A program made the position numbers and the translations under genes. The notes beneath the pieces are model-generated. The model was not told the DNA's origin. It saw only the letters and a list, made by a program, of their open reading frames with translations, and did no database searches. Shown here piece after piece: positions 2,998 to 36,329 of a stretch of 37,890 nt of DNA. Origin of the DNA: a virus. Position 1 is the stretch's first letter. The number at the start of each line of letters is the position of its first letter. The stretch covers positions 1 through 37,890 of the IMG/VR virus record IMGVR_UViG_3300030098_006281; one strand, 5' to 3'.

Positions 2998-3220
2998 ATT
3001 ATTAAAAGCTGCAGTAGCTTTTTATGTATCACAAAAATCAGAGGCTCAAGCTCATTTAGAAATTTTATTTAAAAATTCGGTTGGTATAGGTGAACATACG
3101 GATTTACTTACTGAAGTAAAAAATTGGACAGAGAAACTTTCACAGGCTGAAGAAAATTTATCGACTTTAGATAAAAATTTTGATGAATATGGAGATTTTA
3201 AAAGTGGAGAAATAAAATGA
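2984..3220 (+). CDS. Small hypothetical protein, helical
   Basis: A 78-residue protein with no recognised family. I chose the ATG at 2984 rather than the in-frame ATG at 2972, because GGAGG at 2974-2978 sits 5 bp before it. The sequence is mostly helix-compatible and acidic towards the C-terminus (LSQAEENLSTLDKNFDEYG), suggesting a short coiled coil. It overlaps the end of the preceding nucleotidyltransferase by 14 bp and the start of the protease gene by 4 bp. It therefore belongs to the same transcription unit. No function is proposed. Confidence 0.65.
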   Translation: MAMNKLLKAAVAFYVSQKSEAQAHLEILFKNSVGIGEHTDLLTEVKNWTEKLSQAEENLSTLDKNFDEYGDFKSGEIK

Positions 3221-4428
3221 AAAGAGTATGGAATTATTCACTAATTTGGAAAATAATTAAAGTAGCTATGGCTTTGGCAGTATTTTTATTCTTTTTTAAT
3301 AGTTGTGATGAATCATCAAATCCATTAGCAAACGATGTACCTTGTTGTGTTACACCACCTGATCATGAAGTGATGTCAATGGAACAACACACAATGATGC
3401 CTGGTGAATTACCACAACCAATGATTGTGGGTGGTTATCCAGTAGACCCAGCCTGTCCTAATTGTAAATATGACTTTATGGTTTCATTACAATCAAGTGG
3501 ATGGTGGGGTGGACACTTTTGTGGTGGTTCATTAGTTAGACCTGATTGGGTTGTAACTGCGGCTCATTGTGTTCAAGGAGAATCACCTAATAATGTAGAT
3601 GTAGTTATTGGATTACATAATGTTAATGGAACAACAGGTTCACAAACAAGAGATGTCGCAGAAATAATCATACATCCACAATATAGTGGTAACTCATTAA
3701 ACAATGATTATGCACTTTTAAGATTATCATCACCTATTACAGATTTTGAACCAATTCAATTGTGTACAGATACAGCTCACGATGAAGAACCTGTAATGTC
3801 TACAACAATGGGTTGGGGTGCAACTCAATCTGGTGGTTCAAGTTCTAATATATTATTAGAGGTTGATGTTCCAATTGACGATAGTTGTGGTAGTTATTCT
3901 AATTCAGATATAACAAACAATATGATATGTGCTGGTGATAATAATGGTGGTGAGGATTCCTGTCAAGGAGATTCGGGAGGGCCGTTAATTATGACAAACT
4001 CTGATGGTGAATATGAATTAATAGGTATAGTCAGTTGGGGATATGGTTGAGCGGAAGCTCAGTACCCGGGCGTGTACTCAAAAATACATAGTAGATTAAA
4101 TTGGTTCTTTGGTTACATTGGAGAACCTGAAGATGATTTTGAAGTAGAATTATATGGTGATGTAAATTTTGATGGTGAGATAAATATTACAGATGTAATA
4201 ACAATGATTAATTTTGTTTTAGGACAAACACCAACAGAAGAAGAATCACTAACTGCAGATATGAATCAAGATGGAATCATTAATATTCTTGATGTAATAA
4301 CATTAGTTGGTGAGATACTTGGAACTAACTTTGCACAATCAGTTAATTGGTTAGAAGAAAACTTTCCTTCATTAAATACAAAGGAAAGATTAAGTAAATT
4401 AAATAAAGAACAATACTTTAGTAAGTAG
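3217..4428 (+). CDS. Trypsin-like serine protease with dockerin domain, lipoprotein, in-frame UGA (candidate selenoprotein)
   Basis: A 403-residue secreted S1-family protease if the UGA at codon 278 is read. Residues 12-30 form a hydrophobic signal ending FNSC, a possible lipobox. A propeptide precedes IVGG at 70-73. The triad is His117 (TAAHC), Asp164 and Ser253 (GDSGGP). Asp247 at the base of the S1 pocket predicts cleavage after Arg/Lys. UGA replaces the conserved Cys in SWGYG-x-A, whose partner is Cys249. The frame then continues with AQYPGVYSK, typical of trypsins, and a dockerin module with two calcium-loop repeats (GDVNFDGEIN, DMNQDGIIN). Read as a stop, the product would be 277 residues, lacking part of the pocket and the dockerin. 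Sec insertion is inferred. Confidence 0.85.
4048..4050 (+). other. In-frame UGA, candidate selenocysteine codon
   Basis: TGA replaces the Cys codon at the position equivalent to chymotrypsin Cys220. The reading frame continues for 125 more residues of well-conserved trypsin and dockerin sequence before a true TAG. Elsewhere in the window TGA ends many genes, often as ATGA overlaps, so it is not a reassigned codon. Selenocysteine is the best-fitting reading because Sec usually occupies Cys positions. Readthrough inserting another residue, or a mutation, is not excluded. Confidence 0.65.
4048..4078 (+). promoter_or_regulatory. SECIS-like RNA hairpin after in-frame UGA
   Basis: Two adjacent stem-loops can form. 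The first is TGAGC/GCTCA (4048-4052 with 4057-4061) closed by a GGAA tetraloop. The second is AGTAC/GTACT (4061-4065 with 4074-4078), extendable by a C4066-G4072 pair with a bulged U4073, leaving the loop CGGGC. They share A4061, so they either compete or stack. With the extended stem the apical loop starts 16 nt after the UGA and has G as its second base, fitting general rules for bacterial SECIS elements. G+C over 4051-4078 is 18 of 28 bases, with codons such as GCG, CCG, GGC and GTG that are uncommon here. Function is inferred. Confidence 0.55.
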
Positions 4429-34571: not shown

Positions 34572-35398
34572 ATTTAAAAGATTTAAAAAATGATATTTGT
34601 TTATTAGTTGCTGGTAATATCAATGATGAAATGGATTATGAAAAAATTACTCTTACTATGGAACACAATGAATCTGTTTTTAATGAATTTGGTAAAATAG
34701 TTTTTGTTTTAAATAGTCATGAATCATCAAATAGTAGAGAAGCTGAAAAAGTTGTTGCATTTTTAAAACTTAAATTTCCAGAATCAGTAATATTATTTGA
34801 TTTTGCAAATAGAGGACATCAAATCGGACATGTTGATTTGGATAAAATTGGATTCTTTTATATAAAAAATAATCTAAAATCTATGAAGTACACATTTAAA
34901 TTATCTATAGATATTTTAGTTAAAGATATTTTATTAAACTTAAATATAGATGAAGATACAGATTTTTTTTATCAACCTTCAATAAATTTAGTTGATTATC
35001 AAAAATATAATGATATTTATTATAGAGAGTTTACTAAAGATAATTTTTCAGATGGGTTATGTCCACAGACAATATTTTATATGTTGTCAAATAAAGTAGA
35101 CTTTCCATATGAAAAAAACGAGGTTATAGACAAAAATTATGATGACTGGATCAGAAGAGGTTATAAAGGAGTGGATCAAAAATTGGTTTTAGCTTGTGAA
35201 CATTCTTTAAATAAATCCATTATTAGAAATAAATTTAAAAGACAATCTATGATTGATGAAAGTACTTTTTATAAAATAATAAATTATATGATTAGTACAA
35301 ATAATTCAGATTGCACATTAAAAAATATTTACATACCTGAAATCGGTGTGTGTCATTGGCAGTATAAAAATAAGGAGACACTTACTTGTGCCTTATGA
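34568..35398 (+). CDS. Hypothetical protein in glycan block
   Basis: A 276-residue protein I do not recognise. LLVAGNINDEMDYEKITLTMEHN suggests a Rossmann-like first strand. CPQTIFYMLSNKVDFPYEKNE and the late ICHW-like CHWQYKN recall transferases of glycan clusters. No D-x-D or E-x7-E motif is clear. Its C-terminal 11 bp overlap the next glycosyltransferase. A glycan-related role is inferred from place only. Confidence 0.5.
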   Translation: MNLKDLKNDICLLVAGNINDEMDYEKITLTMEHNESVFNEFGKIVFVLNSHESSNSREAEKVVAFLKLKFPESVILFDFANRGHQIGHVDLDKIGFFYIKNNLKSMKYTFKLSIDILVKDILLNLNIDEDTDFFYQPSINLVDYQKYNDIYYREFTKDNFSDGLCPQTIFYMLSNKVDFPYEKNEVIDKNYDDWIRRGYKGVDQKLVLACEHSLNKSIIRNKFKRQSMIDESTFYKIINYMISTNNSDCTLKNIYIPEIGVCHWQYKNKETLTCAL

Positions 35399-36329
35399 TA
35401 TGGAAATGGAAGAGTACCAAGAGGATATATTAATGAAAGAAAATAACCCAATAACATTTTGTTGTTCAACATACAACACATTAAATTATTTAAAATGGGC
35501 TGTTAAGTCAGTTAGACAAAACGCTCACTTTAAAGATGCAGCGTTTATAGTACATGCTGAAAATTGTGATGATGGTACAAATGAATGGTTAGAAGAAGTA
35601 AAAGATAAATACAATCTTGAAATTTACATTGAACCACATACAAATCCTGTTAGGGGTATTGGTGGTGGAATGAACTTTTGTGCAGAAAAAGTTAAAACAG
35701 AGTATGTTTTATTCATACAATCAGATTTCTATTGTGCTAGAAATTTTGATATTGAATTACTGAAAGTGTTTGATGATTATGAAGATGACGATAGATTATT
35801 AGTTACAAGTCATAGAGTACAACCTGATATATTTAGAGATAGAGATAGGGGTGGTAGAGATGGAACTGTATTTACAGATTTTGATGACTTTGGTGTGTTA
35901 CATAATGATTTTAAAGAAGAAAAATTTTTAGATTGGTGTGATGAATTTAGTAAAATAAACGATTTTAGAATTAGAAGAGCAGAAGGTGCAGGTGGATATC
36001 TTTTGAAAAAAAGAGATTGGGATTATATTGGTGGTAATGATCCATTGTTTGCACCAGCTTCTTGGGAAGATATGGACATCTTTGTTAGAATGCAATTGGA
36101 AGATTTTAAATTCGTTTTAACACCAAAATCTGTTATTTGGCATTTTGCGGCTAGAACAAGTTGGTTTGAAGGTGGTGATAACTTTAATGTTAAGTCGGAA
36201 AGACAAATAAAAGCTGAAGCTGACAATCAAAGAAAATGGATGCAAAAATGGGGACAAATGCCTCAATTTGATAAACATGAATTTATTAAACCAATACAAC
36301 CACCGAAAGGAGTAAAGGTAAGATTATGA
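35388..36329 (+). CDS. Glycosyltransferase family 2-like
   Basis: A 313-residue GT2-type enzyme. I start at GTG 35388, with AAGGAG at 35372-35377. ATG 35433 with AGAGG upstream is an alternative that would begin close to the fold. ITFCCSTYNTLNYLKWAVKSV opens it, HAENCDDGTNEWLEE gives the first acidic site and LFIQSDFYCARN gives the metal-binding SD. WEDMDIFVRMQ is the later ED motif. The acceptor is unknown. It overlaps the epimerase by 4 bp. Confidence 0.84.
   Translation: MPYDMEMEEYQEDILMKENNPITFCCSTYNTLNYLKWAVKSVRQNAHFKDAAFIVHAENCDDGTNEWLEEVKDKYNLEIYIEPHTNPVRGIGGGMNFCAEKVKTEYVLFIQSDFYCARNFDIELLKVFDDYEDDDRLLVTSHRVQPDIFRDRDRGGRDGTVFTDFDDFGVLHNDFKEEKFLDWCDEFSKINDFRIRRAEGAGGYLLKKRDWDYIGGNDPLFAPASWEDMDIFVRMQLEDFKFVLTPKSVIWHFAARTSWFEGGDNFNVKSERQIKAEADNQRKWMQKWGQMPQFDKHEFIKPIQPPKGVKVRL

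Follow-up and report, generated by a model that had tools for sequence, protein, structure and literature searches.

Is the UGA that interrupts a viral protease gene a stop codon, an error, or a codon for selenocysteine (Sec)? The gene lies in a 37,890-nt stretch of DNA (hereafter the window) at the start of the IMG/VR record IMGVR_UViG_3300030098_006281, an 80.9 kb virus fragment whose DNA polymerase B belongs to the T4 superfamily. T4-superfamily myophages, for example Microcystis phage Mel-JY01, carry a DNA polymerase B with up to 48% identity to that of this phage, but among 50,697 phage records no trypsin of this family was found, either in them or in other known phages, the sole trypsin match, in Rhodococcus phage Shagrat, being 28% identical. 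Selenoproteins are known from cellular organisms and from a small number of eukaryotic viruses. We suggest that the gene very probably encodes a phage selenoprotein, namely a lipoprotein for export that belongs to the trypsin family and in which the UGA at 4048-4050 would be translated as Sec at the position of Cys220, directed by a SECIS hairpin.

A trypsin-dockerin gene with an in-frame UGA

The gene forms a single trypsin-plus-dockerin open reading frame (3217-4428) that consists, in translation, of 277 codons, the TGA, 125 codons and a TAG. Its parts are the following.

3217-4428, plus strand: gene for the proposed Sec-containing trypsin, with lipoprotein signal, trypsin domain, in-frame UGA and dockerin, in one frame apart from TGA 4048-4050
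3217-3306, plus strand: predicted lipoprotein signal peptide, ending at Cys30 (...FLFFFNSC), recognized by eye
3565-3567, plus strand: catalytic His57 (residue 117), in the motif TAAHC
3706-3708, plus strand: catalytic Asp102 (residue 164), in the motif NNDYALL
3955-3957, plus strand: S1-pocket Asp189 (residue 247), in the motif EDSCQGDSGG
3961-3963, plus strand: Cys191 (residue 249), the expected bonding partner of Sec220, in DSCQGDSGG, from alignment to solved trypsins
3973-3975, plus strand: catalytic Ser195 (residue 253), in the motif GDSGG
4048-4050, plus strand: UGA putatively read as selenocysteine, residue 278, in the trypsin Cys220 column (the only codons there are TGA, in 20 records, and TGT, in 16)
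4061-4078, plus strand: SECIS-like hairpin AGUAC-C-C(GGGC)G-U-GUACU, from pairing, compensatory changes and the codon-use shift in TGA forms
4153-4308, plus strand: dockerin type I domain 3' of the UGA (Pfam Dockerin_1, residues 313-364, 1.9e-12)

When the TGA is read through, the Pfam Trypsin match covers residues 84-296 (7e-60) and bridges residue 278, and the translation shows the features of the Trypsin fold (PF00089), that is, the His-Asp-Ser triad and the oxyanion motif GDSGG. In the alignment to solved trypsins, the TGA falls on Cys220 of 'SWGYGCA', the partner Cys191 is present as Cys249, and the triad residues His117, Asp164 and Ser253 are all retained together with the S1 Asp (Asp247), which predicts Arg/Lys specificity. 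The initial annotation had described a frame that is intact on either side of a TGA at the Cys220 position, with its partner and the catalytic residues preserved and a dockerin following in frame; this description is confirmed, as the Trypsin domain spans the TGA and the relatives are free of frame breaks around it.

A similar signal followed by Cys is found in those trypsin relatives whose N-terminus is present. Lipoprotein signals followed by acidic/Asn residues, together with dockerin repeats, hint faintly at a Gram-negative host, possibly of the FCB group.

UGA alternates with a cysteine codon in related phages

Three scans of IMG/VR yielded a trypsin clade of 36 viral records with a readable codon (the window and 35 others). 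It had been proposed that homologues be inspected for Cys or TGA in this column, with the following outcome: codon 278 is TGA in 20 viral records (the window and 19 IMG/VR contigs, which derive from many different metagenomes) and TGT in the other 16, with no other codon in the clade and no other stops or frame breaks near the TGA in any clade record. Farther viral relatives that can be aligned at the column have mainly TGC or TGT, and the cellular trypsins matched by the same query have Cys or are unalignable there, with TGA in none. Two features of bacterial selenoprotein genes, an in-frame UGA where homologues have Cys and coding sequence that is conserved before as well as after it, are both found here. 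Moreover, the median dN/dS 3' of the TGA, past the hairpin, is 0.35 in TGA forms (120 pairs) versus 0.34 in TGT forms (78 pairs), so that purifying selection after the codon is equal in both forms and is not relaxed in those with TGA.

Metagenomic contigs may carry errors, and it could be argued that the TGA arose through faulty sequencing or assembly, or that the gene is a pseudogene. This reading, to which we assign a negligible probability, is refuted by the recurrence of TGA in 20 records (the window included) from many different metagenomes, by the unrelaxed selection downstream and by the presence of a linked hairpin.

Trees of the pre-codon sequence imply at least seven changes between TGA and TGT (eight on the protein tree, seven on the DNA tree), although well-supported branches are few on these trees and force only 2-3 such changes. 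TGA and hairpin may have been transferred between phages as one recombining block.

Elsewhere in this phage, TGA has its ordinary role as a stop (20 of 85 called genes), and the TGA of the trypsin gene is the only internal one with convincing comparative support in the 80.9 kb record. Across seven long contigs, convincing internal TGAs are confined to the trypsin gene and a thioredoxin gene. Other genes with internal TGA in these contigs gave many comparison matches, nearly all of them antisense of real genes or short overlapping frames, and were rejected as artefacts. These observations bear on a further explanation, in which UGA stands for Cys, inserted for instance by a tRNA-Cys of the host that has the anticodon UCA, or in which a changed code assigns it some other ordinary amino acid. 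Since the column alternates only with Cys, insertion of Cys would leave the protein unchanged, which speaks for this idea. However, the fact that these phages otherwise use TGA as a normal stop, and the restriction of convincing in-frame conserved UGAs to trypsin and thioredoxin, make such decoding very unlikely, and the hairpins, the thioredoxin active site and a phage tRNA described below further argue against it.

A SECIS-like hairpin follows the UGA

Codon use changes abruptly after the TGA. In TGA forms, the GC content at third positions reaches 0.79 over codons +4 to +9, compared with 0.21 in TGT forms and 0.15-0.16 in the upstream part of this AT-rich gene, and the GC-rich third positions of the TGA forms build a hairpin that begins 10 nt after the UGA, with the loop G starting at +18. 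In 15 distinct TGA sequences, 100% of hairpin cells are paired. Two pairs vary at third codon positions, pair 12-27 being G-C in 11 sequences and A-U in four, and pair 15-24 being C-G in 13 and U-A in two; pairs 13-26 and 14-25 are uninformative because they are set by two Tyr codons. The paired fraction of the TGA forms, their number of doubly changed cells (six) and their covariation score were matched by none of 500 shuffles, and the count of pairs with a double change (two) was reached by 99 of 500. The 13 TGT sequences used as a control are 83% paired, no better than shuffles, and a consensus fold was found for the TGA forms only, not for the TGT forms. In addition, codons +4 to +10 depart from random synonymous recodings under phage codon use by a mean z of -4.5 in TGA forms versus -0.1 in TGT forms. 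A tree-corrected pair test, with only three supported pairs, was not significant. Folding of the single sequence (61 nt around the TGA) gave a z of -0.6, the signal emerging only by comparison, and an Rfam search of the window returned no match.

Published limits for bacterial SECIS elements are a stem of 4-16 bp and a loop of 3-9 nt with a G in its first two positions, 16-37 nt after the UGA (PMC13188914). Given an inner C-G pair, the trypsin hairpin lies within the limits for stem, loop and spacing, with 5 bp, a C-U mismatch and the C-G pair, and loops GGGC, AGGU, GGGA or GGGU at +18. The leading G of the apical loop requires this C17-G22 pair inside the C-U mismatch, and the pair lacks covariation support because it is invariant. 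Against a free-energy guideline of at most -7.5 kcal/mol, the hairpin has -9.3 kcal/mol in the window, -8.3 in L256, -10.0 in L259 and -5.2 in L261, the last of which misses the guideline. A search for more elements with a SECIS model recovered trypsin sites only, the next matches having E values of 0.24 or worse; this model misses the element of the thioredoxin gene.

The SECIS of E. coli fdhF is a short hairpin in the coding region whose loop G residues lie ~19-25 nt after the UGA. The hairpins described here resemble it in their location in the coding region, in the spacing of the loop G and, in the thioredoxin gene, in an AGGU-type loop; they differ from it in sequence and in the gene that carries them. 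We describe the hairpin as being of the bacterial SECIS type, with SelB as its predicted ligand. At window positions 4048-4086 and in the relatives, it was also observed that close relatives, such as L236 and L237, differ in TGA and hairpin jointly.

A hairpin 3' of a stop codon can in general promote readthrough, and it might be speculated that termination at the UGA is leaky and regulated, so that both a short protease and a longer, dockerin-bearing form are made, with the hairpin stimulating readthrough and any amino acid being inserted. The catalytic triad would survive in a 277-residue product. However, termination at the UGA would delete a C-terminal part of the trypsin domain that is included both in the Pfam domain and in solved trypsins, and the sense forms invariably have Cys rather than varied residues. 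A leaky stop is in our view highly improbable, all the more as generic readthrough would leave unexplained why the same device stands at the active site of a thioredoxin and why a tRNA-Sec occurs in a relative.

A thioredoxin with UGA in the same phage group

In the related contig G004, a thioredoxin gene (35079-35423; Pfam Thioredoxin 5.7e-22) has TGA in place of the first Cys of the active site (...FYADW-UGA-GPC...). A pattern scan found the WUGPC[KR]M thioredoxin with TGA in 28 contigs, and Cys relatives of it also occur in viral contigs. One further pattern match, L329, was rejected as not being a thioredoxin. Sec at the attacking position of thioredoxin is a classical arrangement. The hairpin of the TGA forms is mostly UUGAGC-AGGU-GCUCAA, with the core GAGC-AGGU-GCUC, and in a subgroup UUUAGUA-GUG-UACUAGA; codons +5 to +12 have a mean z of -6.9 in TGA forms versus -0.3 in the nearer Cys forms. 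Both the presence of SECIS-like hairpins after the two UGAs and their absence from the Cys forms count against decoding as Cys or under an altered code, as does the position of the thioredoxin UGA at a known Sec site, WUGPC.

Trypsin and WUGPC thioredoxin occur together in five records (G004, G007, G010, G013 and G023), with TGA in both genes in all of these except G004, which combines a TGA thioredoxin with a TGT trypsin. In G004, the thioredoxin gene precedes the trypsin gene by ~9 kb, and the surroundings of the latter are collinear with the window. The thioredoxin was not found in the window's record, where the corresponding place falls beyond the contig end, so that its absence is uninformative. 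It is plausible that the phage thioredoxin reduces the phage ribonucleotide reductase, whose gene is located at 42-1634, shortly before the trypsin. In common with bacterial Sec-thioredoxins (UxxC; Trx family in PMC2398784), the phage genes have UGA at the first active-site Cys, the motif WUGPC and a SECIS in the coding region; unlike them, they are located in phage contigs, five of them alongside the trypsin gene. In G010, a second thioredoxin-like copy that has lost the active site (VDYKQSSYNF; L188:13517-13846) adjoins the WUGPC thioredoxin.

tRNA-Sec and the selenium machinery

G004 encodes a tRNA-Sec at 103633-103727, which scores 69.4 bits (Rfam cut-off 47), is full length and has the anticodon UCA and an encoded CCA. 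It is a true tRNA-Sec, not a tRNA-Cys(UCA), which again argues against decoding of the UGA as Cys. The phage that carries it has the TGT form of the trypsin but a UGA thioredoxin. No tRNA-Sec above the cut-off was found in the other 35 trypsin-group or 23 thioredoxin records searched, nearly all of which are fragments, and no tRNA-Sec similar to that of G004 was found in known phages. The window's own record, itself an 80.9 kb fragment, yielded no tRNA-Sec and no selenium gene. The C-terminal domain of SelB was not found in 36 phage records, nor SelA and full SelB in 19, and these phages would thus have to obtain at least SelA and SelB from their host. The initial annotation had proposed to look for Sec genes in the phage; a tRNA-Sec was found in a relative but none in the window's record, and SelA and SelB were not found in the records searched.

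Other viral contigs gave further observations on such tRNAs. An 11 kb contig (IMGVR_UViG_3300031673_009100, L195:4418-9984) has 16 tRNA genes, with a tRNA-Sec (64.3 bits) within the array, which suggests that tRNA-Sec is encoded by further phages too. Related tRNA-Sec genes scoring 68-74 bits are found at L211:592-762, L224:545-791, L219:4455-4548 and L230:5111-5204; two of them adjoin tRNA-Ala and one also tRNA-Cys, and they may be phage genes or integration sites. Directly after the tRNA-Sec of G004 (L186:9755-9835), an inverted repeat, ATAGGGATAC...GTATCCCTAT, resembles a structured RNA and has no Rfam match.

Relation to known systems

A trypsin-like serine protease selenoprotein (COG5640) was predicted in 2008 from nine sequences of the Global Ocean Sampling, which had a SECIS-like element and were assigned to no organism, and the words phage and virus are absent from the main text of that paper (PMC2398784). 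The suggestion of the initial annotation, which knew of no described selenoprotein of the trypsin family, that the family may be new is hence wrong. As described there, the 2008 protein shares with the phage protein the trypsin domain, TGA in place of a conserved Cys, a bacterial SECIS-like element and a marine origin, and on this published description it is very probably of the same family; it differs in that no organism, virus or gene context is given for it and the available text describes no covariation test. A 2022 review names a trypsin selenoprotein without an example accession (PMC9312934); a 2026 inventory (PMC13188914) contains neither the word trypsin nor the word protease.

Basilisk-like Bacillus phages (PMC6145125) and Salmonella phage SSBI34 (PMC8879037) are reported to carry genes annotated as tRNA-Sec. 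These phages resemble G004 in having such a gene in the genome, but in the available text of these reports no selenoprotein gene is linked to it, whereas G004 has a tRNA-Sec above the Rfam cut-off and a UGA thioredoxin. A survey of marine trace-element proteins that sought viral members found few or none beyond three non-selenium families (PMC9402790), and in a paper on pelagimyophages selenocysteine appears only in a reference title (PMC7029224). Our literature search found no paper describing a phage selenoprotein; most subscription journals and preprints were outside the search. What appears to be new is the ownership of the trypsin by phages, the accompanying Sec-thioredoxin and the tRNA-Sec.

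Proposed mechanism and implications

The proposal of the initial annotation that the gene is a candidate selenoprotein is thus supported. Strong support for the decoding step comes from what can be read from the sequences, namely the interchange of UGA and Cys with no third codon, the conserved hairpin confined to TGA forms, the selection on the downstream frame, the second UGA gene with its WUGPC active site and the tRNA-Sec of a relative, and residue 278 is almost certainly Sec on these grounds. Sec in a serine protease would be an unusual function, which counts against the selenoprotein reading. So do the TGT in the trypsin gene of the phage with the tRNA-Sec, the negative search for tRNA-Sec and selenium genes in the window's fragmentary record, the invariance of the inner pair on which the leading loop G depends, the weak free energy in L261 and the outcome of the tree-corrected pair test. 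In an infected Sec-decoding host, SelB would bind the hairpin and deliver Sec-tRNA-Sec to the UGA; the infected host would supply SelB, SelA and SelD, and the tRNA-Sec would be the host's or, as in at least one relative, phage-encoded. The same mechanism would serve the WUGPC thioredoxin of the phage group. The complete trypsin-dockerin lipoprotein would then be exported, and by homology Sec278 would most likely pair with Cys249 (Cys191) next to the S1 pocket, through a selenenyl-sulfide bond. As to the benefit of such a bond, one might guess that it forms faster than a disulfide or better resists reduction, in a protein whose site of action lies outside the cytoplasm.

More broadly, we consider it likely that this lineage of marine T4-like phages has a small selenoproteome of its own, consisting of the trypsin lipoprotein and the thioredoxin, sometimes with its own tRNA-Sec and reliant on the SelA, SelB and SelD of the host, and that these are the first recognized selenoproteins of bacterial viruses. 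If so, phages use the 21st amino acid, such phages must infect Sec-decoding hosts, which offers a route to narrowing down those hosts, and they may boost the supply of tRNA-Sec during infection. The orphan prediction of 2008 would gain an owner. The protein would also provide a natural test of Se-S versus S-S bonds in a serine protease, where a redox role is not known, for which the naturally occurring UGA and UGU versions, respectively with and without the hairpin, are ready controls.

Two other features of these phages may be mentioned. Over a long distance (window 16430-37889), the genes share one strand; they include several glycosyltransferases and nucleotide-sugar epimerases and apparently form a surface-polysaccharide island in the phage. 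At L102:3582-19027 (G000 40.6-56.0 kb), there are two neighbouring, very long open reading frames of 1845 and 3302 aa with no Pfam match.
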